Shown: positions 1 through 56,924 of the stretch, in pieces
Position numbering within the stretch: the first letter of the stretch is position 1
How the letters are laid out: each line of letters opens with the position of its first letter
From: Psococerastis gibbosa
Taxonomy: Eukaryota; Arthropoda; Insecta; Psocodea; Psocidae
Length of the DNA: 64,000 nucleotides
Direction of reading: 5' to 3'
Assembly: GCA_963971405.1 (NCBI GenBank)
Contig: OZ020484.1
Location: 30,340,770-30,404,769, forward strand
Made by a program: the position numbers and the translations under genes
Notes under the pieces: generated by a model
The model's database searches: none
Told to the model about the DNA's origin: nothing
Seen by the model: the letters and a program-made list of their open reading frames with translations, nothing else

Positions 1-99
1 TTAATAAATAATAATAAGAAGATATGTAATCGTAATATTAAGATTTAGTATATCCAGTAAACTGGATACACATATAAAAAGGTAGGGTTGCACGCTACA
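1..99 (-). repeat. 3' LTR of Gypsy element, first 99 bases only
   Basis: On the minus strand the LTR begins TGTAGCG at position 99, directly after a purine-rich tract, and runs out of the window at position 1. All 99 bases match 7289-7387. The shared stretch contains an 8-bp-arm palindrome (TATCCAGT / ACTGGATA) and a TATA-like run. The perfect identity is consistent with a recent insertion, though 99 bases is a short sample. Confidence 0.93.
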
Positions 100-1024
100 A
101 CAAGGGTCTTCCCCCCCCCCCATTTTTTTTCAAACCTACACTCGTTAGGAAAGCAAACGAGAGAAAAGCCCCCATCGCCCCCAAGAAGTCAACACCACAC
201 GAACCAAAGATCCCCAGAAAAACAGAGAAGAAAAGAACGGAACAACGGGAAGGGATCTACACTAGCCTGAGCCAGTACGAGACCTTTGAGCGGTTAAAAC
301 CTAAAGAACATCTTAACCGATCCACTGACGGGTAACCTCGCTACAGAAGAGGGAAAAACCAATCATACACCATTCGTATCCCATTCATACAACATCCATC
401 CACGGATTGGGCGCCATCTGTAGGAGCAGAGAGAAAGAAGAACAGCTGAGGAGATATGGTATGGGACTTCGCGGTCCCAAAAAGACCGGACTATCCCATC
501 GTAACAGAGTACAGAAGGGAGTTCCAGAACGTAAAACGTCGATACTAAGCATCTCGCGATAGCATTAGGATCGCCCTCAAAAGGTCATAGCGGACCACCC
601 TCCGTAAAAAAATTACACATTGGGGAGTTCACACACACTCATAAATCAAACACTCGAAAACAAACTCCCACCCAATTATTGATCAATCCACTAACTATAC
701 CAAAAACCAAACTCAGAACAGAAGGTATCCAAACATGGTCTTTTCAACCTCATTCTCCAATGCAAATCGACATGGAAGGATAGAAAGCTCACCCCCCATT
801 AACGATTCACGAATCATTTTCCAAAATTTAATACGTCCAGGAGTACTCAAAACTCAAACAACCAGGACATTCCTATTCAACGTCGTACTAAACTCACTAA
901 CTATTAATCACCTCCGGGACGACAACTAAAACAAGCAAAAAAATATGTAGGGTACACCCCCTCTTTCTTTCATATACTATTTTAAGTACACAACAATACA
1001 CAGTCGAACCCACGATATTATAGT
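100..1024 (-). other. 3' noncoding region and polypurine tract of Gypsy element
   Basis: Between the pol stop and the 3' LTR lie about 925 bases with no open frame on the element's strand. The last part (about 104-122, read on the minus strand) is a G-run with AAGA, directly preceding the LTR's TG. This is the expected polypurine tract that primes plus-strand DNA synthesis. Around 405-425 there is a GGCGCC-centred sequence that looks like a primer-binding-site core on the minus strand (TGGCGCCCAA); its meaning here is unclear. The small forward open frames at 88-270 and 735-929 resemble no known protein and are taken as chance. Confidence 0.75.
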
Positions 1025-4000
1025 CTAGGTCAACACAGATTTCAAGTGAGACACATGCCAACGTCCAGCCAAAGTACCATTCATGCGTTGCAGTTCATAC
1101 TGCGTTGGCGAAAGCACTGTTTTTATAATGAATGGTCCCTCCCATCGTGGATAAAATTTGGCTGTTTTCTTATCAATAGCACTAGATTGGTGAAAATCTT
1201 CCTTAAACACTAGTTCTCCCGGTTGATAGGTCACATCTTTCCTTCGCAAATTATAACGTGCCGCCTGTCGTTGTTTAGCCCTCCTTACGGTGGATCGTAC
1301 CCGTTGATAGAGAGCGTCAAGATTAGTGGTCAAAGTGCCATTATAGGTGACAGGATCAAATGGCATTAAATCAGAATTATCAGTAGTTGCAGCCAACTCA
1401 TAAAAGGAGCGCAGTTCTCTGCCATAGACTAGCTTGGATGGAGAAAAACCCGTTGCTTCACTTACCGACGTTCTAAGAGCAAACAGAACAAATGGTAAAT
1501 GTAAATGCCAAAGCTGGTGATTATCCTTAGCGTAAATAGCCAGCGCGGTCTTGATTGTCTGATTATATCTTTCAGTTGGGTTACTTTGTGGATAATAACG
1601 CGGACAGAAATGTATTTTGATATGGTGGTCTTCACAGAATTGTTTAAATCGCCTACTAGTAAATTGTGATCCATTATCCACCAGTATGATCTCCGGTACT
1701 CCATGATGCATGATAACATGATTGAACAGGGCGTCTTCGACAGTCTTCGAAGTCGCAGATTTCAATGGGACTCCTATACTCCACTTTGTGCACGAGTCAA
1801 TGAAGACACAGATATAACGATGGCCACCGCGACTGCGGGGTAATGGTCCCACTAAGTCGCAAGTCAGAAGTCGAAATGGTTTGAGTGATGGCGGGTGCAC
1901 CTGCATGTGCCCATGAGGCGTGGTATTGCGTGGTTTATGGCGTTGACAATCCAGACATCGGCGAACGGCGAGGCGCACATCTCGGGCCATTCTTGGCCAG
2001 TAATGGTTCTCAGCGATGCGACGGAGAGTGCGATTGATTCCGAGATGGCCAGACGGTAATGACGAGTGATGCTGCTTAATCAGCTCCTCTCGAAACTCGG
2101 ATGGTACAAGTAACTTAAGATCATCGGTTTTGGTAAGTCGATCTCGAACGGATTTGAAAATGGATGTGGGAGTAAGATGAAACTGCGGGAAATGAGTAGG
2201 ATTCTGTTCTATCTTCTTACGTAAGGCGAGGTACCATGGATCCGTAATGGTACTAAAGTCGGGTAAAGGCGCAGTAATTCCCGTCAAGGCGGAAATGACG
2301 GTGGAAGGCTGCATTCGTGACAAGCAGTCAGGAACAACATGAGTGGAACCCTTCTTATGGAGGATCTCCATGTCGAACTGGTTTAGAGTAACTAACCAAC
2401 GGGCCAGACGTCCGCTCGGGTTAGGAATGTTTCGGATCCATTTCAAAGCCAGGTGATCCGTCACACAGGTGAATCGCGTTCCCCAGATGTAGAAAGACCA
2501 GGTAGTGACCGCATGTAGTACCGCCAACAACTCCTTTTCTGTCGTACTGTAATTACGCTGGCTACTGGATAACGTTTTCGATGTATATGCGACGGCGTAG
2601 GGCACTCCGTCTTCTTCTTGGATCAGCACAGCTCCAACTGCAATGTCCGAAGAATCACAGTGAATCTGAAATGGTTTAGAGAAGTCAGGACAGCGCAAGA
2701 CAGGATAAGACGTAAGGCAATCCTTCAACTTCTGAAAGGCAGATTCCCGTTGCTCAGTCCATTCAAAACGGGTATCTTTATGTAGCAGCTGGTTCAACGG
2801 GGCGGCAGTCTCGGAAAAACTCGGAATGAAACGCCTAAACCATCCCACCATTCCTAGGTAGGCGCGGACGGCCTTTACAGACGTTGGTCTTGGATAATTT
2901 CTGATCGCGACGACCTTGTCTTCGGAGACTTGTAGTATGCCTCCTCCCACACGATATCCGAGGTAGATGAGCTCAGATCGGACGAACGTGGACTTTGTCC
3001 AATTTACCTTTAAGTTGGCTTGACGGAGGAGTCGGAAAACTATTTCTAAATGTTTCTTATGTAGTTCCGCGGTACGGGAAAATATTAAAACATCATCTAG
3101 GTATACGATTGTAAACTCTTGAGCTTCGCGAAGTACTCGCTGCATCAGACTCTGGAATGTCGCGGGCATCGTACTAAGCCCGAAAGGTGCATAGGCATGT
3201 TCAAAAAGACCCATATTGGGTACTATAAAAGCTGTTAAAGGTCTGGTGTCATCCGCTACGCGGATTTGATGATAGCCCGACAGGAGGTCAAGCGAAGATA
3301 CAAAATACGCATCTTTCAGACGGTCCAGAGACTCATGAATCCGGGGTAAAGGAAAAGCATTGGATTTACACAAGGCGTTTACACGTTTGTAGTCGACGCA
3401 GACTCTTATCTCGCCGTTTTTCTTGCGGACCGGAACTACAGGCGACGCCCATTCAGACTCTGACGGAACAATGACGCCGTCTGCTAGTAATTTCTTAATC
3501 TGCTGATGCACAATCTCCAGGACCGGTGGTGACATCGGGTAGTAGCGCTGTTTGACCGGCACCGTATTCAACTCCTTCAGGTACATTCGATGCTCTACGA
3601 GGTCACACTTGCCACTCGAAGTGAGGAACTGCTGTTTCCATTTGCAAAGTAAGTCATTGAAGTCGGCTCTGTCAACGGGTGTTAAGTCCTGGTGGCAGAA
3701 TTCCTCCATTTCATTAATATTTGGGTCTTCAATGGTCACATCCTTGACGTCCACCTCATCCACACAGTGTAGAGAAAAAGCGTCAGCACGAATGATAGTA
3801 GGGGCTGCACCATCTTGAAGAGTTACTCGATGTTGTCCGAAGTCAATGACGGTTCGGAGGGCTTGCAGTGTGTTCATCCCCACAATTAGAGGATGAGAGA
3901 GACGCTTCACAAGGTAACAATCTCCTGCCCAATTTGCGGGTCCCGCGTCCGTTTCTACAATGAGGTTGATCTTGACACACCCGACTACTTCGGCTTCTTC

Positions 4001-4411
4001 CCCATTGGCAACAGTCGCGCTTGCCGACACCGCGCGGATGTGATGTCCCCTTTTTTGTAATTCATGCCAATACTCACTTAAGATGACAGAGTGAGTCGAT
4101 CCGGGGTCAATAAGTCCAATAACTGGAATCCCACCCATGTCTACTTTAATGTAGTACCGTTTCTGGGGGTCCGGCGCGTTCGCACAAGAAGACAAATCAA
4201 TCTGCACCGATGGCTGATTGTTCACTGTTGTTGGTGAGGTTGTTCGGTTGCGGGGGTCGTGGTCACCTGCCTCGCCACGCCCCCTTGGCTGTTTAACTTC
4301 GGTGGCCGGCATGTACAAAGGCTGGATAGGACTCCCGTCTTGCCACAGTGATAACAAAATGGACGAGAAGTGGTTTGGCAGTCTCGTTCCCGATGTCCAA
4401 ACAGGCGGCAA
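1025..4411 (-). CDS. pol: Gypsy Pol polyprotein (PR-RT-RNase H-IN)
   Basis: An open frame of 1128 codons, numbered from a TTG at 4411 that is probably not a true start. It lies in the -1 frame relative to gag and overlaps gag by about 190 bases, so expression by -1 frameshifting as Gag-Pol is inferred. Domains by residue: aspartic protease about 85-205 with the active-site loop I-D-P-G-S at 101-105 and a downstream LIVGMN near 175-180; reverse transcriptase about 285-490 with YLDD at 437-440; RNase H about 580-700 (D586, E627, D652); integrase with H-H-C-C zinc residues near 781-822 and catalytic D852, D912, E947 (34 residues between the last two); and a C-terminal WEGPF-type GPY/F motif. No chromodomain is seen. 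The proline in the protease loop is unusual, since the family normally has D-[ST]-G. No stops or frameshifts interrupt it. Confidence 0.95.
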   Translation of the reverse strand: MPPVWTSGTRLPNHFSSILLSLWQDGSPIQPLYMPATEVKQPRGRGEAGDHDPRNRTTSPTTVNNQPSVQIDLSSCANAPDPQKRYYIKVDMGGIPVIGLIDPGSTHSVILSEYWHELQKRGHHIRAVSASATVANGEEAEVVGCVKINLIVETDAGPANWAGDCYLVKRLSHPLIVGMNTLQALRTVIDFGQHRVTLQDGAAPTIIRADAFSLHCVDEVDVKDVTIEDPNINEMEEFCHQDLTPVDRADFNDLLCKWKQQFLTSSGKCDLVEHRMYLKELNTVPVKQRYYPMSPPVLEIVHQQIKKLLADGVIVPSESEWASPVVPVRKKNGEIRVCVDYKRVNALCKSNAFPLPRIHESLDRLKDAYFVSSLDLLSGYHQIRVADDTRPLTAFIVPNMGLFEHAYAPFGLSTMPATFQSLMQRVLREAQEFTIVYLDDVLIFSRTAELHKKHLEIVFRLLRQANLKVNWTKSTFVRSELIYLGYRVGGGILQVSEDKVVAIRNYPRPTSVKAVRAYLGMVGWFRRFIPSFSETAAPLNQLLHKDTRFEWTEQRESAFQKLKDCLTSYPVLRCPDFSKPFQIHCDSSDIAVGAVLIQEEDGVPYAVAYTSKTLSSSQRNYSTTEKELLAVLHAVTTWSFYIWGTRFTCVTDHLALKWIRNIPNPSGRLARWLVTLNQFDMEILHKKGSTHVVPDCLSRMQPSTVISALTGITAPLPDFSTITDPWYLALRKKIEQNPTHFPQFHLTPTSIFKSVRDRLTKTDDLKLLVPSEFREELIKQHHSSLPSGHLGINRTLRRIAENHYWPRMARDVRLAVRRCLDCQRHKPRNTTPHGHMQVHPPSLKPFRLLTCDLVGPLPRSRGGHRYICVFIDSCTKWSIGVPLKSATSKTVEDALFNHVIMHHGVPEIILVDNGSQFTSRRFKQFCEDHHIKIHFCPRYYPQSNPTERYNQTIKTALAIYAKDNHQLWHLHLPFVLFALRTSVSEATGFSPSKLVYGRELRSFYELAATTDNSDLMPFDPVTYNGTLTTNLDALYQRVRSTVRRAKQRQAARYNLRRKDVTYQPGELVFKEDFHQSSAIDKKTAKFYPRWEGPFIIKTVLSPTQYELQRMNGTLAGRWHVSHLKSVLT

Positions 4412-5610
4412 CCCCTACACTTGTAAGTGGTCATATTGGCAGGAGAAACCAGCGCCAGGAGTTGTGGTCTTGAAGCTCCAAAGTCACCGTAGAGCGGGTT
4501 GCATAGCATAGCGTTGGTCGGTGGAACGTAGGACGCTTGTTGTTCCAGTTGGTGCTCCGCCGCGACGCAAGTTATTTCAAAGGATTTTATTGAGGTATAT
4601 ACCGTAAGTTGGGAACCTACAAGACTAGCCAGTCGAGGGGGTAGGTGAGCCATGAGTAACGGTACAAGTTCGACTTCTTTGAGTGGAGTTGCGAGGTCGT
4701 CGTTCAGTGCCTTCATGGCCGCGATGTAGTGGGCCACCTTTTCGTGTTCTCCCATCGTTCTAGTATATAGTAAGACCTTCAACTTGAGTTGATGGTCTGC
4801 CGGCAGGTAAACGTTCTTCAGCGCCATTTCCAGTTCGGTCCATAGTGCATACTTATTTCCGGCGTACCACCGAGCGGCTGGCCCGTCAAATAGCGTAGGT
4901 ATGGCGCGGAGTTTTTCGTCTTCTGTTAGTGGGTGAAGGGCAAGGCAATCTTTCAATTTGTTAAAAAAAAGTGGTAGACTCCCGTCGGCACCGGTGAACG
5001 TGATGTTGCGTCGTCGTGCCTCTTTTAAAAACATTTCTAGTTGTGGCCTAGAGCTTCTCCCTGGAAGAACCTGTCGCAGGAAATCGCGTTGCAACTCTAA
5101 ATTGACCTTGAAGATTCGATTCAGTACTCTCTCCATCCGTATCTCCTCTCCTTGATCGTGGGAAAGCTCTTCCTCAGGCTCCAAGTCTGTTGGTCGAGTC
5201 TCGGGTAATGGTGAACTTACCAATTGCAAATTTGCAAATTTATCAATGTCGCCTAGGCAAGCTGGATGATCATTCACGTAGCTTTTCATATATTGTCGTT
5301 GCTCTTCCAGATCAGCCGCCGGTAACTCACATCCGACTTCCGTGGCTAATGACTCGAGCTTCTCTCCATCACAGTTGGTTAGATACTGTGTTAATGTTAA
5401 TGGTACCACTAAGTAAGGAGGCCGTACAATGGTAACGTCTGCCATATCCTCAAACTGGTTTGCCGACTCCGGTGTCGCTAAGAAGTGGCTTTTTAATTCC
5501 TTTTTCAGGGTCTCCTTCGTGCCTTCTATCGGTAATCCTAACTGTTCAGCGATCTCTTCTAGCCGGGCCTTACTGGTGGCACTCAAAAACTGTATTAGGG
5601 TTCGCGGCAT
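4222..5610 (-). CDS. gag: Gypsy Gag polyprotein
   Basis: 462 codons from the first ATG (MPRTLIQF). The frame stays open four codons upstream to a GTG, but the ATG is preferred. Gag builds the virus-like particle and packages element RNA. Residues about 5-46 look like a SAP-type helix-loop-helix segment (SKARLEEIAEQLGL). Residues about 200-360 carry the retrotransposon capsid-type region (GPAARWYAG). Near the C-terminus is a canonical CX2CX4HX4C zinc knuckle at 398-411, followed by a second knuckle at 419-432 in which the histidine is valine (GKTGV), so it may not bind zinc normally. The pol frame begins within the 3' part of gag in the -1 register. No slippery heptamer was assigned with confidence. 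Confidence 0.9.
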   Translation of the reverse strand: MPRTLIQFLSATSKARLEEIAEQLGLPIEGTKETLKKELKSHFLATPESANQFEDMADVTIVRPPYLVVPLTLTQYLTNCDGEKLESLATEVGCELPAADLEEQRQYMKSYVNDHPACLGDIDKFANLQLVSSPLPETRPTDLEPEEELSHDQGEEIRMERVLNRIFKVNLELQRDFLRQVLPGRSSRPQLEMFLKEARRRNITFTGADGSLPLFFNKLKDCLALHPLTEDEKLRAIPTLFDGPAARWYAGNKYALWTELEMALKNVYLPADHQLKLKVLLYTRTMGEHEKVAHYIAAMKALNDDLATPLKEVELVPLLMAHLPPRLASLVGSQLTVYTSIKSFEITCVAAEHQLEQQASYVPPTNAMLCNPLYGDFGASRPQLLALVSPANMTTYKCRGCRLFGHRERDCQTTSRPFCYHCGKTGVLSSLCTCRPPKLNSQGGVARQVTTTPATEQPHQQQ

Positions 5611-6546
5611 TATCTTTCGCACTTTTCACTATATATATTTATATAAATATATATTTTTTTTTCCACAACAATGTCTATCGTAATATTAAATAGTCTTACG
5701 TGAAGTAATTCACACGATAATTGTTATTAATACACTTATTATTTATAATTATCATAAAAAGGGAAGTAGGTGTTCCTAAACACCCCCTCCTCAAACCCAA
5801 GACGAATGCGACTAAAGAAAACTAACTGGTATATATTATACCACTTTTGGTAACCAATATAGGCCTACCTGCTTATTATTAATATAATGAATTAATACTT
5901 CCTTATCATTCATTCCATACATACAATACTACGACCAAGAGTGTGTGAACTACCCCAATGCTGATAACTGAGCCAATTTGCACAAAACAAGTCAAATATA
6001 TTCCGTGTCAAACAGAAAGGACAAACTCCTATCAATGGTTTACCATAATTAAAGTAAAATGACGATAATTTTTATATAGGCCCAATATTAAATAAATAGT
6101 TATAGATTGAATTACATAAAACCGATGTTGACTCCTCTGGATCCGTCCGTCCTCAACCCTGACGAATTGACGAAACTGTAATTATAACCACAACAGCACA
6201 AAGATTATCCGTAACCTAAGCCCTGTTGACAATCAAAACATTTTATTATCACTATTTTTTTCTTAGCGAACATCTTTCAAAAATATAAATGCCATGATTA
6301 AGAATTTTAAAAAGTATCATTTACTGTTTGTTATTATCTTTTCGAAAACTATCATTTCCAAAATTATTAATATCACTTGTCAACAACTAATTCAAAACTA
6401 CTGTTGTTTATATCTTTTCAAAACTATTGTTCTAGCCTAGAAATATCACTTTTGTCAACAATCCATTTAAAAATAAGATTATCATGTTCGTAACAATTTC
6501 ACAACAATCATTCCAACCATTCTACAACCTCGGGCCCCAACGTTGG
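5611..6546 (-). other. Gypsy 5' leader with putative primer-binding site
   Basis: About 930 AT-rich noncoding bases lie between the inferred 5' LTR end and the gag ATG. Just inside the LTR boundary, on the minus strand at about 6525-6542, is TGGGGCCCGAGGTTGTAG, which begins TGG as a tRNA 3'-end complement should. It is a candidate primer-binding site; the tRNA was not identified. The segment otherwise holds A/T-rich low-complexity DNA (for example 5631-5663) and no open frame of interest. Confidence 0.55.
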
Positions 6547-7387
6547 TGTGAGCCACTTTGTTGCGTTTTCTCCCCGGCTTAGGGTTCTTTAGGAGAGGCT
6601 GCAGGATCGAGGAATGAATGTTGTGAAATAATTACAACAAGATTTAATTAACAGAAATTATATTCTTGATAGAATTATGAAACCCTAAGATATAGAAAAA
6701 TAGAGCACCTGTAGTAGCGTGGCCAATAAGCGTCTCCAATAAATAAAAAGTAAGCGATCACCTCATGGCTCAATCCTAAATCGTCACATTGTCTGGGCTG
6801 AGGAGGGAGCGGAGTCCGAACACCCCCTTCCGGGTGGGGTTTAGCCCATCATCGTCGAAATCAAATCCATGCCACCACAACTCCTGCCAGCCATCATCCT
6901 TATGACTTCTTCCTTCTTTAAAATCTCATTTCTTTTTTTTCTTTTTTTAAAATCCAAATCGGGTTATAAGAAATTCTCGGCCATCCTTTCTCGTAACATT
7001 TTCTAACAAGCCACCGCAAATTCAACCGGCCGCCAACCTCTCGTCAAAAACTTTTTTAAAGTAATAATAATAATAATAAAAGTATTTTTATTAATAAATA
7101 GAAATAAATAATAATAGATACTTTATGATTTTGTGATTTTAAAAGATCTGGCGATAATTAAATTGTGAATAATAATAAAAGATAGAAAAAATTAATTTAT
7201 TTTAAACCGATGATGTTTATTTGGAGGTTGGTTAATTGAACAAAACAAATATGGCGGATTTACAAATAAATAAATAAATTGAAAAAATTTAATAAATAAT
7301 AATAAGAAGATATGTAATCGTAATATTAAGATTTAGTATATCCAGTAAACTGGATACACATATAAAAAGGTAGGGTTGCACGCTACA
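6547..7387 (-). repeat. 5' LTR of Gypsy element (about 841 bp)
   Basis: The outer edge at 7387 is certain, because 7289-7387 repeats 1-99 exactly and begins TGTAGCG on the minus strand. The inner edge at 6547 is inferred from a minus-strand ...CTCACA end, giving the usual TG...CA termini, followed seven bases later by the candidate primer-binding site. It could shift if the second LTR were available in full. It contains T-rich tracts, (TAA)n runs near 7063-7120 and the TATCCAGT/ACTGGATA palindrome shared with the other LTR. Confidence 0.7.
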
Positions 7388-9700: not shown

Positions 9701-9795
9701 TTTACTTTTTGTTTTAGGTAAGTTTATTCAATAACTGGTAGCCTATAGTTCCAGAAGCCAATACTCCAGCTTTTTGCTTTATGCACTTAGTAAGT
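9697..9795 (+). promoter_or_regulatory. Candidate recursive splice site with RS exon (upstream intron)
   Basis: A pyrimidine tract TTTACTTTTTGTTTTAG ends at AG 9716-9717 and is joined directly to a consensus donor GTAAGTTT at 9718. A possible branch point (TTTAC) lies within the tract. A second strong donor, GTAAGTAT, begins at 9790, defining a 72-base potential RS exon (9718-9789). The next Hth exon starts at codon phase 0; in that phase the RS exon reads seven codons and then TAG, so inclusion would truncate Hth. Known recursive sites in long introns have this layout: splice to the AG, regenerate a donor, splice again. Seen: the motif. Inferred: its use. Confidence 0.5.
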
Positions 9796-35236: not shown

Positions 35237-37183
35237 TCAATTTTCATTTTGATTTTTGAAAAAGCTTCTTAAAAAGCACAAAGTATCCAATGTTTTGTCG
35301 TTGAGCCTTGATCGAATTTTTGTTGAAAATGCTCCTGCAGCGGAAAAAGCGCGCTCTGACTCCACACTAGTTGGTGGAATTGTTAATAAACTTTTGTAAA
35401 GATCTTCCAAAAGCGGTCCGCGGGATCCCCCTTCATCCCAAAATTTCATTTCACTGCGAATTTCGGAATGAATCGATGATTTTTGTAGAACTTTTGACCG
35501 TGATTCCGAGAGTGATTCGTTTATCTTTTGCTGAAGAATTTGCTGCAAGGATAACTGAGTTTCCAATGATTCGATAGGTTTATCGTCATCCATTTCAGTA
35601 GACTCAGATACTGTCGGGTCTATTTCTAATGCTACTTCACCATTAAGTCTCTGGATTAGGGATATGATAATTTTGTTAATTTCAGTTTTCGAGCGACGCA
35701 AAATGTTCTTGTGAATTTTGGTTTTACCCCCATTATGCAAATATTGAAGAACATCAGATACGACAGTTCTTCTTCGATTAATTTGAACTTCCAACTCTTT
35801 TTTCATTTCACGGCCAATTTCTTCATTCTCATCAAAATTTTCTAACACAAACGTAAATGTTGCATCCGCAGAAAGTAAATTTGCATCAGCACGGCATAAC
35901 GCGTCTACGGCTAATTTTATAGGCATCAAATTTCTAGAAACTGTAGATATTATATTCCATTCTGAATCATTCAAAAATGTATCCGCTTTGATATCAATTA
36001 TTGCCTTTTTTATTGAACTTTTCAAAAGATTAAAACGTTCTAACATGGACATCAGGCTACTCCATCTAGTCTTCGAATCAAGCAATAGCTGCAATTCCTT
36101 TCCATGATCTTCCTTCACATGTTTTTGCAACACTTCATTTTTTAAAGGGGAACGTCGAAACACTCGAACAATTACCCGAACTTTCATGATTACATTTCGC
36201 AATGTAAACTTTTCAGTAATTTCTACATCACATTCATTTCTCGTCCCCACTTGCATTCCTTCATCATCACTTAAATCTTCTTCATCAGAGTCCAGATCTA
36301 GGACACTCTCATAATCATCTTCATCTACCTCTTTCTCTGTTTGTTTGTAGATCACATTTACAATTGCAATCTGAATTGCATGAGCAAAACACAAAATTTG
36401 TTCACATGGTAATAATCTACCCACTTTTTGCATCATAGAAGCACCATCAGTTACAATACACGAAATATCGTTCCTTATATTTAACTGAAATGATTCTAAC
36501 TTGTCCTCTAACAATTTTACACAATTTTCAGACGCAAATCGACCATTAATTCGAGAAAGACCCAAATTCCAGATATTTTTCGACCCATGAACGTTAACAT
36601 TCATATAACGTCTATTTCGAGAGGACGTCCACTCGTCCAATGTTAGACTAAAGCATAAATTCTTTTTTAATTGATTAATTTCAGCAATTTGCAATTGTTT
36701 AATTTTTTTACTATAATCCATCACGACTTTCTGTATGCTGGTGGGTGATTTTGGAATATCACCGAATCCACGCATTGTTAAACATTTTCTTAAATCGTTT
36801 GACGTACAAAAAACACGAAACGGTAAACCATCAGAAGCAATCATTCTAGCTACTACGGCAGGAAAAGTTTCATCTTTTTTTGACTTGAAAAAATCAATGA
36901 TCGTGTTCGTTTTTCTGGTTGTGCTCACAACACTATCGTTACTGTCAGATGTAGAAGCTGTTGTATTTTCATCAAACTTTCGCTTGCTCAAAACTGTGTT
37001 GTGTTTAGAACGAAGATGTGTGTGCATGGGAGTTGTACATCCACCCAATATCTTTAAAACTTGCTTGCATTGCATGCATTTCGCCACCTGATTTGTTTTC
37101 CCTCGTAGAAAATATTTCCACACTGAATTTGATGAGCTTTCTTTTGAAATGTCCATAAAAGTTTCTTCAGATTTATCTACCAT
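35237..37183 (-). CDS. hAT transposase (BED finger, hATC domain)
   Basis: 648 codons from the first ATG (MVDKSEETF), which has A at -3 and G at +4. The frame stays open further upstream, but only through a short tandem repeat and without an ATG. It catalyses cut-and-paste transposition. Residues about 20-61 form a BED-type zinc finger (C36, C39, H56, H61). The RNase H-like core has LDEW with D183, TDGASMM with D246, a CFAH box near 265-268, and a TRW box near 372-374. An acidic insert (EDDYESVLDLDSDEED) lies near 287-310. The C-terminal hATC dimerisation region contains SERAFSAAG at 609-617. No frameshift or stop is present. It probably acts on its own TIRs; supply to the short hAT-type elements nearby is possible but their ends differ. 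Confidence 0.95.
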   Translation of the reverse strand: MVDKSEETFMDISKESSSNSVWKYFLRGKTNQVAKCMQCKQVLKILGGCTTPMHTHLRSKHNTVLSKRKFDENTTASTSDSNDSVVSTTRKTNTIIDFFKSKKDETFPAVVARMIASDGLPFRVFCTSNDLRKCLTMRGFGDIPKSPTSIQKVVMDYSKKIKQLQIAEINQLKKNLCFSLTLDEWTSSRNRRYMNVNVHGSKNIWNLGLSRINGRFASENCVKLLEDKLESFQLNIRNDISCIVTDGASMMQKVGRLLPCEQILCFAHAIQIAIVNVIYKQTEKEVDEDDYESVLDLDSDEEDLSDDEGMQVGTRNECDVEITEKFTLRNVIMKVRVIVRVFRRSPLKNEVLQKHVKEDHGKELQLLLDSKTRWSSLMSMLERFNLLKSSIKKAIIDIKADTFLNDSEWNIISTVSRNLMPIKLAVDALCRADANLLSADATFTFVLENFDENEEIGREMKKELEVQINRRRTVVSDVLQYLHNGGKTKIHKNILRRSKTEINKIIISLIQRLNGEVALEIDPTVSESTEMDDDKPIESLETQLSLQQILQQKINESLSESRSKVLQKSSIHSEIRSEMKFWDEGGSRGPLLEDLYKSLLTIPPTSVESERAFSAAGAFSTKIRSRLNDKTLDTLCFLRSFFKNQNEN

Positions 37184-37204
37184 ACTTGGGTTGGGATTTA
37201 AAAA

Positions 37205-37290
37205 AATAACAATGTAAGTACACAATGCTGCCACAATGAAAGTACACAATGACACAATGCTGCCACAATGAAAGTACACAATGCTGCCAT
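37205..37290. repeat. Short tandem repeat upstream of transposase
   Basis: About two and a half units built from CACAATGCTGCCACAATGAA and AGTACACAATG precede the transposase ATG. They account for the apparent hydrophobic N-terminal extension of the open frame, which should not be read as a signal peptide. The repeat may lie in the promoter or 5' UTR. Confidence 0.75.
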
Positions 37291-37307
37291 CTATAGTAAA
37301 AGTTCTT

Positions 37308-37410
37308 CTAAATTCGAAAAATCCGGAATTTACGTTTTTGAATTCCGGATTTTTAACATTTCAAAATATGACGGAATTCCGGAATTCCGAAATTCCGAAA
37401 TCCGGATTTG
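37308..37410. repeat. Right subterminal palindrome cluster of hAT element
   Basis: At least six CCGGAATT / AATTCCGG / TTCCGAAAT units occur just inside the right TIR (for example GGAATTCCGGAATTCCGAAA). They mirror the left cluster, as expected for transposase binding sites. Confidence 0.7.
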
Positions 37411-40284: not shown

Positions 40285-40414
40285 AGGCCACCGTCTTCGT
40301 CTCTATCGTATGGACCTGGGAATGACGACGTCCGGTCGCCCGGGTCGGGGGGCACCCCTGGACCTCTCTCCCAACCCCCCGGTTCCCAACAAAGTGTGGA
40401 CGCCAATGATCCCG
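40285..40414 (+). CDS. hth: hth internal exon: Homothorax (Meis-family) linker
   Basis: Hth is a TALE homeodomain transcription factor that partners Extradenticle/Pbx and drives its nuclear import. This 130-base exon (43 codons plus one base) encodes a Ser/Pro/Gly-rich linker containing RPPSSSLSYG, a NDD-x-RSPG-x-G segment and TPGPLSQ. These match, in order and spacing, the Drosophila Hth region between the Meis domain and the homeodomain. The upstream acceptor is a T-rich tract ending TTGTTACAG; the downstream donor is G|GTAAGTTA, a near-perfect consensus. The exon enters in phase 0 and leaves in phase 1 (final base G after GATCCC). It is markedly GC-richer than the surrounding intron. No neighbouring Hth exon was found in the window. 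Identification rests on recalled family sequence, not a search. Confidence 0.85.
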
Positions 40415-41835
40415 GTAAGTTACCTTCAAATATTTCAATCATAATAATTTTTTATTGCATTACGAAAAGCCATTAAGGACAATTCCTTAATTCCTAGATT
40501 GGGTTTTAGGGAAGATTTTCTATTGGAATATCCCTTTACTGCTGGCTCAAATTAAGTTCTTATGAATATTCCATGAAAGCCGAAGTACCCAATCAGTCGT
40601 ATGTGGTGAGCACTACTTTCGTGAATACCTTTTTTATGTAGTACAAAATAGCTCATTGAGTCCCTTTTTATGTTGTACAAAATAACTTATTGGGTGATTC
40701 TACTTTCATGAAATATTCATTATTCGTGGGTACTTGATCCGAGCCAACAGCTAAGGTATAGAAGTTGTCGTGTAAGAATTTGAAAATTTTGGTGGTCTTG
40801 GATGTATGAGCTCAGCCAATTTGAAGAAAATATAGTTAATTGAGGAAGGAAATTATAATATATTAAAAAATAAACTTTTTCCACTTCATATTTTAGTGGA
40901 CTTTTATTGACATTTTACTGTACTTTACAAGGAGAAAAATTCAAAATATACACTGAAAAATTCAAAATATACACTAGGCAGCCTAGTCTAGGCTATACCA
41001 GTATTGTACTGTAATATTTAAGGATAACCGATTGCAGACTATATACTCGTACTTTGCTTTCGGGGACATTTTAATATTGTGCACAGCAATAAGCTCTATT
41101 GTATATAGATGTGTGCCCTGTAATTTTGAAAAAGCAGAAAACTATCCAAACCATTTTGGGTATCGGGTTAAGGGAACCCAGACATTCCAGGCTGGCTACC
41201 TGGTCTGCACATTTTTAATTAGCCATCCTTTTCGCACCCCCATGACTCGTTCATTTCTCACAGTGCAATCTAGTTTTTACCCCATTCATCTTTACCAATT
41301 TCATGCGGTGCTACAATGTCTCCGGCCAACCTAATTACCGCGGTGAGGTCTTAACTAAGCCTCATTAATTTAGGCCTGCTGTTGAGCGTATGGCACACCA
41401 GGCGCAAAGAACCATTGTATACACTAATTTAACTTACACAAATTGACTCATTTGTAACTGTCTGCGTTTCAAGTACCTTTACACATTGTTTGCCGGAATT
41501 CTAAGAGTTTTTTTTTCGAATTTAAATTAACATTTCCTTTTGTTTCGCCACAAAATGAAAGAAGCAAAAGTTCATGAATTGGAACGAACATTTGCATTTT
41601 TCCTATCTTTGTTGATTAATGGGAAAATTGTGTGTTTGTGCTTCTTGGGTTAGTTTTAATTACTCTGGTCTTTCCAAAACCTTTTGCGGTTCTTTTCAGA
41701 CCTCTAAGATTTATGTAAAACGCTATCTTAATAGTTCCGGTGTATTGCAGAGTGTAGTCATTTCCGTATTCTCTCGTTTCTATATGCGTGGAATAAGAGG
41801 AGCTTCTTTTGAAAATCTTTCTCAGTATTATACAT

Positions 41836-51558: not shown

Positions 51559-54420
51559 GTGTTCAAATAAGCTTTTTATTTTATCAACTTAACTTGTTTT
51601 TCCACCACCAACCACTACACAATAGGAGTATTCACTGTTTGGTATTTAGCAGGCTAAATATGTTAGATCGAGAATCCCATTCTTGATCGTAAATAACGAT
51701 GGAAAATTATTTAGCAAGGCAATTTAGCGAACCCTGAGGTTAGCTCAATCCATCGTAGGCCTAAATATCTAAAAACCGTTAATTTGCGTAAACAGCCCAC
51801 GGCCATTATCATTTTATTTTATTTTTTAATTTGTTCATCAGTGGGTGTTTATAGTGTGAGTGGTTAATTTGTAAATATTTATTTTTATTTTATTTTATTT
51901 TATTTTATTTATTATTTATTTGCATTTTTAAGAAATATTCTTCAATTTTAAGTTCAGCAGGACTGTCTATAATATTGTAGTATTGTAATGTAATTGTATC
52001 TACACGATGTTTAGATTTCCGAATTTAAAATTATAAATATTTAGCATGCTGAATCCATAGACATAGTAAAACTATAGACTCATCGTAAACATTCGGATTG
52101 AAGCCGCTTGGCTTCGGCTATTTCCGTAGTATATGATTAGATTAAGCTTTCTGTCATTTGATACCGTGGTAACATTTTATTTTTTATTAGATTATTTAAT
52201 GATTATTTAGAACGAGAAATCATGCCACGTAACCAACAATATTTTTATGCAGAACGTGCAGTACTTTTAATTTAAATTTTAAACAATATATATAATAAAT
52301 ATAATAATATATGAAACAACAATGGAAACATTTAATAAAACTATTAAATTTGAATTTCCCGCCAAAATGCCCCTATTAGTAGGCGTGGTCATGGCTTCAG
52401 TCTTCAGCACAGGCGAAATACAGCATGGTGACTTCATAGTTTTATTAGCTCCATGGCTGAATCACATATTGAATACCTAAATAGAAATCAAAATATAGAA
52501 GAAAATTTCTTTTTAACATTAAGAGGCACTTTTTATTGCTCTACCATCGATATTTTCTATGACATTTGATTTTTTTTTACATCCGTTAGGTTTTCACTCT
52601 CCTCTGTTTTCTCTGAAATCCCCACTACGCGTTTTTGAAAAAAAAAACTCAAATTTCCTGTGAAATATGGATCATAGAGCCATGATTGACAGTAGAAGAA
52701 GTAAAAGGAATGCTCCTCTACAATTTTGTACATTTTAAGTAGCCTGCTTGGTCACAGTTTTTGAAGGCGTGAAAAAATGAAAAGTTAGATCCAAACTTTC
52801 AAAAACTGGCTAAGCTGATATTATTTGTCAAAATGTATAGGAGTATTTCTTTTACTTCTCCTGTCATTTATTTTTTTATTAGCTTCAGTCTTTTAGTCTA
52901 CACACTACGATTTCATATTAATTGAATGAACTGCTTTCAACTTTGTAATTTTTAATAATTAACTGTCGGGTCTGGGTAACAAACCAACGTTAAACCGCAC
53001 AGAGGGCCAATGCCTTGCGTAGTTGATGTAAATTGCTATAACTTGTATTTTTTGGGTTGGTAATAAATTATTGAAATTGAAATCCATATTCATTCATAGA
53101 AATTCAACTTTGTGCAAAAGTCTTTTCAAATGTTTTCAAAAAGTCCATTGTATGCCTAGACTATGCTAGTAGTTTAATTTCTGGTTTCCTTTATGTGCAC
53201 TGTTCCATTCCTGGAATAGCAGCTACTGAGCAATTCATCCCCCAAAATTCTTAAGTTGACAAGAACCCTTTTGCAATAACAAAAATTACAAAATTCTCGG
53301 AAGGATCTTCAAGTTGCAAAAGCCACACAAAACAGGTGCATTTACTCGCAGGAGCATGATCGAACCCAATGACACATCCACTTCAAATTGTTAACCTAAG
53401 TGAAACCGGCTCTCGTCACCCCCCGGCCGGGAGGAACCCTTAAATCATCCATAAATTCTTGTAATTTTCGTAAAAATTCCCACCAACGAAAGAAGAGGTG
53501 TGACAAACAATAGAGCCGCGAGGGGTTCGTAGGCTATGTTGAACCCGGAGGCTGCTTTTGAACTCAAGTGTCCTCTAAGAACCCTCTAGACGAGTACTCT
53601 CTGGTCGCTGCAGCGAAGCTTCTGTTGGCGTACACCAGCTTGTTGCTACCGACAGCTCCCCCCTGTTGTGATTGTATTAAAGTGTAATTATGTTCGAGAG
53701 CTATGCGGGCATCAGTGGTGCTAACCGCTTCGGAAAAAGGGTGATTAGATTTTGGCCAGGCAGCAGGGGTGGGGTGTGATTTCATCTTATCGGCTGCATC
53801 CTTCAGATGATTAAAGGGTGGTTTTTCTTCCATTGTTTGTAGAGATAGTCGAGTTTGCGGGAGAAGTGGGCTGCGAAGTGGATGGCAGACAAAACGGTTG
53901 ACGTTCTTTCTGCTGTCCCACGGATGAACATATTTTAAGCTACATGCTGATAAAACGTTGGGCTCGTATTGCTTATTTACCTCCTTGACAGCATGAGAAG
54001 CATCCACTTTTCCTGGATCGAAGTATAATCTTTATTACCGTGTATCTTTATTTCACCTGGCTTTTTTATACCTACTTATGTCACTCTCTGCGACCAATGC
54101 TGAGAAAACTTTGATGGGGGTTGGTGGACTGCTGGTATGCATTGTTGGGGCATTGCCATTGATGAATTCTGGCACGTCCTTTAATTTAAAAAAAACAATA
54201 ACCATCCAATCTAAATTACAGTTCATTTTCAACTAGGTTTCTCGAGACAGATCTGGAGGTTTGCTGCCCCCATTCCTTTTCCATTTCAGGTACACATAAT
54301 GTACAAGTAGGTACATTGTCGATACCAAAAAGTGTACACGTATGTATTGTACTTGTCTCGTCGACTCTTGTATTGTACAGGTACTTACAATTTAAATATG
54401 TAAATGGTTTCTTCAATGAT
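51559..54420. other. Intronic DNA with one unassigned 147-codon frame
   Basis: (TTTTA)n at about 51881-51912. A retroelement-like 3' tail (GGTTGGTAATAAATTATTG) near 53055. The minus-strand frame 53564-54007 (147 codons, GTG-initiated, internal MEEKPPFNHLKDAADKMK) is in a GC-richer block but has no recognised domain or splice context. TTTCCATTTCAG at 54278-54289 is a good acceptor-like sequence followed by GTACAC, a poor donor. Confidence 0.35.
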
Positions 54421-54442
54421 ACTGTAACATTTCTCCAGTGTT

Positions 54443-54527
54443 AAATTCTAACTTTATTCTTTTTTTTTAGGTAAGTGTGGTTTCATACATTTTGCGTCAA
54501 CCTCCAGATAATTGTCAGCCGGTGAGT
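54443..54527 (+). promoter_or_regulatory. Candidate recursive splice site with RS exon (downstream intron)
   Basis: A branch-point consensus (TTCTAAC, about 54447-54453) and the pyrimidine tract TTTATTCTTTTTTTTAG end at AG 54469-54470 and abut the donor GTAAGTG at 54471. A second donor, CCG|GTGAGT, starts at 54522, giving a 51-base potential RS exon (54471-54521). The Hth exon upstream leaves in phase 1; joined in that phase the RS exon reads 13 codons and then TAA. Two outcomes are possible: removal by recursive splicing (no trace in mRNA), or inclusion giving a truncated, homeodomain-less Hth. The motif quality is seen; function is inferred. Confidence 0.55.
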
Positions 54528-56924
54528 CTCCTTATAGAAGCCCACTTGCTACTCGTAGCATCCTTCTTAATAATATATAAGCTACAATTTTGAAACCTAT
54601 TTGCCTATACCGGTAATGAGTTCGTAGATTTTTTATCCTCTTGAAATTATTATTATTTGCTGAATACGTTATTTTACCCCAAGTTTGATAATATAAAAGG
54701 GGGTTACATGACTCTGGAATGCGACATCATCTGTGATGGCCGTGGAGTAACCGCCAGTAGCACGTCTTTCAGGAGTGACGTCATTTTCATGTTACCCATG
54801 TCTGCCGACTGCCAGCGTTTTGGCTCTTGTAAAGCACAGCTAAGAACACTATAATTGTTTATTTATTTTTTATTTAGGCCTACAACTGTTTGTCATGCAA
54901 AAAACATCAAACATATTCTATATTTTATTGTTGCAACTTTGTTGCCCATTGCTACGCTCTCTCTGGATTTTTATTGAGAATTCTTTGATGGGATGATAGC
55001 GTCAAAAGAGCTGAGGGGGGGGGGGAAGTTATAGGTTGATAGTAGTCCTTCTCCGATGCCAACCTTCTTCTACTGCAAGCTGCCATCGGCAAGTGGAAGC
55101 CTGCTTACCTCTAAGTCACACTGTAGCAAGCATAAACCAGACTTAACCAACTACAGGAATAACATTTGTACGATTTTACGGTGTTTTCGAGAAAGTTGAG
55201 CAAATCTTGGTAATGGTTGAGGGACACCTTCCCCCCTCGTCTTAGAACAAACTTCCGTTCTCCCTTGAACGCGTCCTGCCCCTCACAAATAAATCTTGGT
55301 GAGTAATCTCCCTCGCCATCTTCTCCGTTGTTTCTCAGACAATGGCTCAAAGTCTTCGGCTAGGTGTCCCTTAAGACACCCATACAACTAATTACAAGTC
55401 CTGTCATCACTTTCTGTCCCCTTTAAATTTCTACTCGGAAACACAACGGTAGTATTCTGTTACATGATATAGCACAACTGAACGCGATTTAGGTTGATTG
55501 TTAAGCAACCTGGGGTGGAAAACCAAATTATCAAAATTTACGGGACATATCTATTTTAGAGGCATAAATGCTGATATTTCATGTAGCGTAGAAATAATTT
55601 TTCTCTAAATTTTGGTGTGCACAATGTGGCCGTCACTGCTGAGTGCTGACACCGATTGGCTAATGTAATAGAACTTGATTTTTAGAAGAAATGGACACTG
55701 AGGATGTCAGGTCGTGGAGTTACAAAACTGCAGTCAACTGGTGTTAGTGACAGTTATATATTATTTATAAAAATTTAGAGGAACAGGAACCTTTCTTCCA
55801 CTTTCTGACACCTCATGCACAATATTTCACGTAAAAAAATAGACTTTAGGGGTGGTTTGACTGCTTTGAAAGAAATTTGCCCACACTTTGACCTTGGAGG
55901 ATCTCTGTTACCCATGACCTACCCCTCCGGCCTCCATTCACTTTTTATAGGCTTATACCAAAATGGATTTCAAAGGATAAAAAAAAAAATGGAAACCGAC
56001 ACCATGGGCGTCAGGACCATACAATTAGGCGGTCCGTTCTTCCCGGACGATTTTTTTTTTTTAATGATAGAGTTCATAGATTTTTAAGAATTTTAAAAAT
56101 AGCCTTTTGGTAAATTTGTTGATCAAAATTATGTCCGGTTCATAGATAGAGGGGATTGAAAGAAAATTTTCTTTGCCACTACATTGTTCAACTAACAATT
56201 TATTTTGTGTGCATGGGGCTAGTCCTAATTTCGAACGTAATTCTTTGCAAAACATTGTTTAATTTCTCGCCTTCCGCAGGCTGAAAGGCGATTACTTAAT
56301 GCTGTTAGCACCTACTGCGTTTCTTCCACCCCTAGGGCCTAGAGGTATTTATTTTTCATAAAGTCCCCAGCACTCCCTCCCTCTCCTCATTTGCGTTCAT
56401 TAAAGCTTGTCCAATTTACTCACCAGTGGCTGGGGACTTCTGCAGCGTACACTTCTTACCCCCCTCCCTCCTCCTGTGAACCCCCCTCTCCAAAGCCCCC
56501 CTCATTTCTACGTTCCTTATCACGTTTTAAGCCTCGTTCCCATTTCTTTTGTTTTTTATCTCTTAATGAAAATAAATGAAAATTATTTACACCAAAGAAA
56601 GGAAGATGAAGAAAATGTTTGCTTTTTTTTTCTTTGTTTGTGCTCACAGTTGTCAGGCCTTCCCTGCTGATGCGATTTCTTTTGTCTTTTACGCTTTGTA
56701 TTAATGGAATTGATAACTGATGTAATTGCCATACTTTAAATGAGCTCTCACGCCAATTTAAATTCATAGCCTGACCCGCTGTTGCTACTATGCATAATGA
56801 GGAAGCCACCAAGAATAAACAAGTCAACAATTAAGCAGCTATTAAGCAAAGATTGGGAGATAGGGTTAAAAGCATTGTTTACTAAAGGGTTATGAGCTTG
56901 ATTAAGTCTGGTCCCACCATCGCA
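54528..56924. other. Intronic DNA, nothing recognised
   Basis: G-run at 55014-55024. Pyrimidine-rich 56440-56520. Small frames at 55111-55350, 55815-56087 and 56456-56830 show no known domain. Confidence 0.4.

Follow-up and report, generated by a model that had tools for sequence, protein, structure and literature searches.

Putative ratchet points for recursive splicing in two long introns of the homothorax gene of Psococerastis gibbosa

Background

The homothorax (hth) gene is reported, as cited in other papers, to contain an ultraconserved element. In Drosophila, hth is also one of the genes, next to Ubx, kuz and Bx, for which ratchet points with RS-exons have been described (PMC8605326); the general properties of such sites are treated in PMC6110457. 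At such a ratchet point an acceptor within a long intron is juxtaposed to a GTAAGT, a short exon with a donor of its own follows, and the sites show a bias towards the sense strand. The RS-exon, which measures around 50 nt but is variable in length, is recognised first, after which the upstream exon is joined to the ratchet point and the regenerated donor removes the RS-exon (PMC8605326). Cryptic RS-exons of this type are normally skipped. The regenerated donor is usually, though not universally, stronger than the donor of the RS-exon, and fly hth forms an exception: among the eight cryptic RS-exons that were put to the test in minigenes, that of hth gave the skipped product although the regenerated donor of the reporter is weaker than that of the RS-exon (PMC8605326). 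Recursive sites are reported to be twice as conserved as control AGGT motifs in PMC6110457, the main text of which does not mention hth. A related case is provided by the recursive micro-exons m1 and m2 of Ubx, which are 51 nt long, have a functional donor at the exon start, and are expressed and ultraconserved (PMC8605326).

Comparative data on insects show that such sites are enriched in large introns relative to the opposite strand, 21.7-fold in the fly, 8.0-fold in the beetle and 4.0-fold in the bee (PMC2773006, Table 2). Their density per 100 kb of large intron amounts to 2.2 in the fly, 1.0 in the mosquito, 0.8 in the beetle and 0.5 in the bee, versus at most around 0.12 on the opposite strand in these four (PMC2773006).

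A second point of comparison is exon 8 of Drosophila hth, which follows exon 7. The 3-nt form of this micro-exon is the start of a 48-nt exon, with the layout AG/ATG/GTAAGT, and mutation of the GTAAGT abolishes the 3-nt form and increases the 48-nt form (PMC7392893). The word 'recursive' does not occur in that paper. PMC10551640 contains the terms micro-exon, recursive splicing and homothorax, and draws no link among them in the parts available. Our search of the literature on homothorax, micro-exons and recursive splicing recovered, in the passages and listings that it covered, no paper linking hth exon 8 to recursive splicing, and a search on recursive splicing in Psocodea recovered no paper.

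Results

The sequence analysed, referred to as the window, is a stretch of 64,000 nucleotides. On its forward strand lies a coding exon of 130 nt (40285-40414), which starts in phase 0 and ends in phase 1 and was recognised as exon 7 of hth by peptide similarity and length; exon 7 is likewise 130 nt long in Bombyx, Apis and Acyrthosiphon (PMC7392893, Table 1). Sequence, length and phase all place the exon in hth. It ends in CCC G/GTAAGT at 40414, with the donor starting at 40415. For comparison, a set of 187 proteins was compiled from the best 120 of the 181 significant matches of a first search and the 67 new proteins among the 77 of a second search, the 61 weaker matches of the first search lying outside the set. 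The exon 7 peptide was in the query, and since the proteins were chosen by it, all 187 carry that peptide. They derive from insects and some crustaceans, and many of those listed are named homothorax. The motif SYGPGND occurs in four of the 187 (P0121 of the louse Pediculus, P0125 and P0127 of the louse Polyplax, and the contig protein P0122), and only P0122 among them is identical over the whole exon 7 peptide. By this one exon, the sequence would belong to a relative of lice and bark lice (Psocodea). A tblastn search of the window for the homeodomain or exon 9, with probes from fly Hth and Meis, yielded nothing above chance level (best E values 0.11 and 0.13, the latter being exon 7). Given these weak matches, we place the downstream exon past 64000, which puts the 3' end of the intron outside the window and makes the intron at least 23586 nt long, from exon 7 to the window end. 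Exon 7, its phase and an intron extending beyond 64000 thus agree with the initial annotation.

Within this long intron, on the sense strand, a zero-length candidate site is found at 54470/54471. It had been annotated as a branch point and pyrimidine tract leading to an AG that abuts GTAAGT, followed by a second donor 51 nt on and, in phase 1, by 13 codons and a TAA, and a direct reading of 54446-54476, of the donor at 54522 and of the translation together with the last G of exon 7 bears this out. The branch-point-like TTCTAAC covers 54446-54452. As read from the sequence its branch A is 54451, 19 nt upstream of the G of the AG (the splice-site scan recovered CTAAC at 54448-54452). The pyrimidine tract and the TAG acceptor follow at 54453-54470; the T-rich tract itself comprises 54453-54468, and pyrimidines occupy 15 of the 16 positions that were scored (54452-54467). 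The acceptor scores 6.5, versus 5.4 for the real acceptor of exon 7, and its trinucleotide is TAG, versus the preferred CAG. The TAG, which ends at 54470, directly adjoins GTAAGTGTG, which starts at 54471, and the six bases of the regenerated donor GTAAGT (54471-54476) are identical to those of the exon 7 donor. Further on, the donor GTGAGT (54522-54527; GTGAGTCTC from 54522) bounds a predicted cryptic RS-exon of 51 nt (54471-54521) that, with the final G of exon 7, translates as GKCGFIHFASTSR and then reaches the TAA at 54509-54511. A GTRAGT at a distance of 20-150 nt downstream is found for 4.9% of the positions on the forward strand. On an approximate score over four positions, the regenerated donor comes out equal to that of the RS-exon, at 5.3 each. 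No longer repeat of the surroundings of 54470/54471 was found elsewhere in the 64-kb window, no match at gathering scores was obtained in Rfam, and the RNA over the site is predicted to be less structured than shuffled sequences (z +1.78; an equal or better fold is reached by 193 of 200 shuffles).

A second zero-length site, absent from the initial annotation and found in the present analysis, lies on the forward strand in the intron before exon 7. Here tttgttttag/GTAAGT (AG/GTAAGT at 9716-9723, junction 9717/9718) is followed 72 nt later by another GTAAGT, at 9790, and the predicted cryptic RS-exon between the two (9718-9789, 72 nt) reads VSLFNNW in phase 0 and then a stop. The branch point is weaker at this site, the scan giving only a TTGAT 40 nt upstream.

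To rank the sites, insect acceptor and donor matrices were used, which are approximations. With these, 54471 ranks first (combined acceptor/donor score 11.8) and 9718 second (8.8) among the 379 AG/GT sites of both strands, and the third site scores 4.2. The top site of the opposite strand reaches 2.7, and the real acceptor and donor of exon 7 score 5.4 and 5.3. We also counted AGGTRAGT where 13 or more of 16 positions in the preceding tract are pyrimidines, in comparison with Markov models of orders 1-4 (300 simulations each). The expected number was 0.017-0.043 per 64-kb strand, two were observed on the forward and none on the reverse strand, and two such sites were reached in 2 of the 1200 simulations. 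When the count was made conditional on an acceptor-like site, the 43 such sites on the forward strand gave an expectation of 0.0175 for a GTRAGT directly next to it and an observed number of two, versus 0.0201 and zero for the 39 on the reverse strand. If the sites were independent, the Poisson probability of at least two on the gene strand would be around 1.5 in 10000, but as the first had been chosen beforehand by an earlier reader, the fair measure of surprise is the second site only (around 0.017). In a control with 560 permuted 8-mers, one of them, without overlap with these sites, was likewise preceded by a pyrimidine tract at two places on one strand. Direct observations are the layout, exon 7 with its phase, the strand bias and the excess over chance. 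Any GT directly next to an acceptor-like site was seen in 7 of the 43 cases on the forward strand and in none of the 39 on the reverse strand.

Discussion

Considering the layout, the statistics and the precedent, we regard it as probable, by a good margin, that 54470/54471 is a fly-type intronic ratchet point by which the intron is removed silently, and that 9717/9718 has the same role before exon 7. The homothorax site would then probably be a real but ordinary step of intron removal, of a kind already known from flies, fly hth included. The likeness to the ratchet points of Drosophila comprises the long intron, the acceptor juxtaposed to GTAAGT, the short exon with its own donor around 50 nt on and the sense-strand bias, within a gene that is named in PMC8605326; unlike those cases, the present exon 7 is not from a fly and the site is predicted from sequence. 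The Ubx exons m1 and m2 share the length of 51 nt and the donor at the start, but are expressed and ultraconserved (PMC8605326), whereas the predicted hth RS-exon carries a stop. Two sites in 64 kb fits the insect densities of PMC2773006, though the scoring differs. In addition, the segments that would be removed are of considerable length, with 14056 nt counted from the donor of exon 7 and 30567 nt upstream of exon 7, and a GTRAGT is present downstream of both sites, at 51 and 72 nt. Against this stand the TAG acceptor, the weak branch point of the second site and a rival acceptor upstream of the first (score 6.6 versus 6.5).

We infer the use of 54470/54471 in splicing, as well as the order and silence of the steps, from the fly process. 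The spliceosome would first define the cryptic exon of 51 nt that the TAG acceptor and the GTGAGT donor enclose. Exon 7 would then be joined to 54471, the joint recreating CCG/GTAAGT, and the recreated GTAAGT would act as the donor for the next step, in which the cryptic exon is removed together with the remaining long intron, leaving nothing of them in the mRNA. The site at 9717/9718 would work in the same way in the intron before exon 7. Given the tie between the regenerated donor and the RS-exon donor, competition between them does not by itself predict skipping; that the 51-nt exon is skipped is likely by fly precedent, not by donor score. Of the original interpretation, one part, a recursive site with a cryptic exon, is supported by the sequence statistics, the bias towards one strand, the further site in the adjacent intron and a fly precedent in the same gene.

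The initial annotation had further suggested a switch towards homeodomain-less Hth. In such a case, which is compatible with a ratchet point, the 51-nt exon would sometimes be kept and would add GKCGFIHFASTSR and a stop after exon 7, yielding either a homeodomain-less Hth or a target of NMD. The tie between the two donors would permit this, homeodomain-less isoforms are commoner than full-length ones in the fly (PMC7392893), and some Hth proteins are annotated with an end shortly past exon 7 or 8 (P0099 of Plutella, P0101 of Diabrotica and P0186 of Hermetia; also P0078, P0079, P0091 and P0094), although such gene models may be partial. However, no tail resembling GKCGFIHFASTSR was found among the 187 listed proteins (best local score 24, versus 66 for the peptide against itself), the homeodomain-less forms of the fly arise through extension of exon 6 or use of an exon 7' (PMC7392893) and the RS-exon of the fly hth reporter was skipped (PMC8605326). 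A stop within 17 codons of one frame is moreover close to what chance would give, and the second cryptic exon (9718-9789) contains one as well. Hth tails that start with GK or GE after exon 7 were considered as evidence of inclusion and discarded, as they may equally arise where a gene prediction reads through the donor of exon 7. Regulated inclusion is therefore improbable in our view, and the proposed switch, with a near-chance stop in both cryptic exons and fly exons that are normally skipped, has no evidence of its own. Two other exon structures would likewise end the protein early. The strong acceptor ttccatttcag/GTACAC, which ends at 54289 (score 6.6; ttccttttccatttcag in 54267-54470, forward strand), together with 51 open codons in phase 1, makes an ordinary exon of 181 nt (54290-54470) a rival, with the GTAAGT at 54471 as its donor and the tract and AG before that donor as incidental. 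It would reach a stop after the 51 codons and end Hth before the homeodomain; from the base composition, the probability that any one frame is open over this length is around 3%. Yet in the scan the 45 nt next to its acceptor are devoid of a YTNAY branch motif, the exon would finish in a run of T, its length is not divisible by three, and it does not account for the branch point, tract, AG and downstream GTGAGT, which makes it a very remote prospect. Slighter still is the chance of an alternative last exon that starts at 54471 and uses a poly(A) site such as the AATAAA at 55288: the in-frame stop at 54509 and the AATAAA would suit it, but the strong donor at 54522 lies inside, AATAAA is common in AT-rich DNA and no similar tail occurs among the 187 listed proteins. 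Finally, the site may never be spliced and be a coincidence, with AGGTAAGT lying by chance behind a T-rich tract in an intron that is AT-rich. An order-3 Markov model predicts 0.67 occurrences of AGGTAAGT alone in a 64-kb strand, and an unrelated 8-mer of the 560 behaved alike. Nevertheless, the two sites observed on the gene strand versus 0.0175 expected, their absence from the opposite strand, the branch-point motif at 54448-54452 and the donors downstream of both sites make coincidence quite unlikely.

A different view of the same site, to which we give an equally low probability, is that it is the orthologue of hth micro-exon 8, between exons 7 and 9, at zero length and nested in a longer exon, while it also works as a ratchet point. 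The shared features are the location after exon 7, the same phase and the layout of AG, 0 or 3 nt, GTAAGT and a donor 51 or 48 nt further on; lengths of 0, 3, 6, 9 and 48 nt have been recorded for exon 8 among insects (PMC7392893). The difference is that the fly retains 3 or 48 coding nt (PMC7392893), whereas the present site offers 0 nt instead of an in-frame exon of 3-9 nt, or 51 nt with a stop, and past the GTAAG the peptide does not resemble fly exon 8. Over the 23.6 kb that follow exon 7, the patterns used revealed no other candidate for exon 8: 54470/54471 was the only 0-12-nt exon between a pyrimidine-rich YAG and GTRAG, and neither 9-mers of the DAL/DAM/DAI type with any GT donor nor the 3-nt exon type with GTRAG were found. 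A small exon that combines an unusual sequence with a weak donor would escape these patterns, and exon 8 may simply sit past 64000, for which reason this view is graded low; as ratchet points are common in long introns, position alone is a weak argument for it. In its broad form it would hold, just as doubtfully, that insect hth exon 8 is a ratchet point with a leading micro-exon of 0, 3, 6 or 9 nt depending on the lineage, read within a longer exon through re-splicing at GTRAGT, and that silent points and coding micro-exons interconvert. The outcome of the fly GTAAGT mutant is as expected if re-splicing takes place within a longer exon.

The protein set provides some further observations on exon 8. 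The start of exon 9 could be identified in 97 of the 187 listed proteins, and in 44 of these 97 it was preceded by an insert of three residues that is of the DAL/DAM/DAI type or closely similar, the other 53 having no insert or another one. Before GKWC, Lycorma P0062 has DALGKRIIDSFLW where the sister isoform P0011 has DAL. The GK in P0062 fits read-through of a GTAAG donor, and a nested layout of exon 8 may thus exist outside flies. Forms extended as if through the donor were seen in Lycorma (P0062/P0011), Condylostylus (P0093) and Plutella (P0099), with DALGKRIIDSFLW, DGKFLSSQSNDSELTYNGN and DAMGEYRQ... up to a stop, respectively. The species concerned (P0062, P0011, P0093 and P0099) are ones that we take to be outside Schizophora. 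The nested layout has been described as confined to Schizophora (PMC7392893). Residues of the DVT, DAM and DAL type occur at the place of exon 8 in P0082, P0085 and P0092 (bee, ant and wasp) and in P0112 (spiny lobster), and these hymenopteran and crustacean residues suggest that exon 8 is older than stated in PMC7392893.

With the two ratchet points as predicted, fly-type recursive splicing would extend, in a gene where flies have it, to an apparently distant insect group, and two exact coordinates, 54470/54471 and 9717/9718, are supplied for it. If the micro-exon view were true, it would explain the splicing of 3-nt exons, whose length does not suffice for exon definition, and the change of zero-length sites into coding exons.

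Mobile elements in the window

Two mobile elements were observed on the reverse strand. Positions 1-7387 contain an element of the Ty3/gypsy type, in which a gag-like frame (without a match in Pfam) lies upstream of a pol frame, and 99 bases are identical between 1-99 and 7289-7387. An open hAT transposase frame with zf-BED and hAT dimerisation domains lies at 35237-37360. Its nearest matches are ENA proteins with 93-96% identity, including 96% to a cluster of 57 members, and the hAT family is on this basis probably young.
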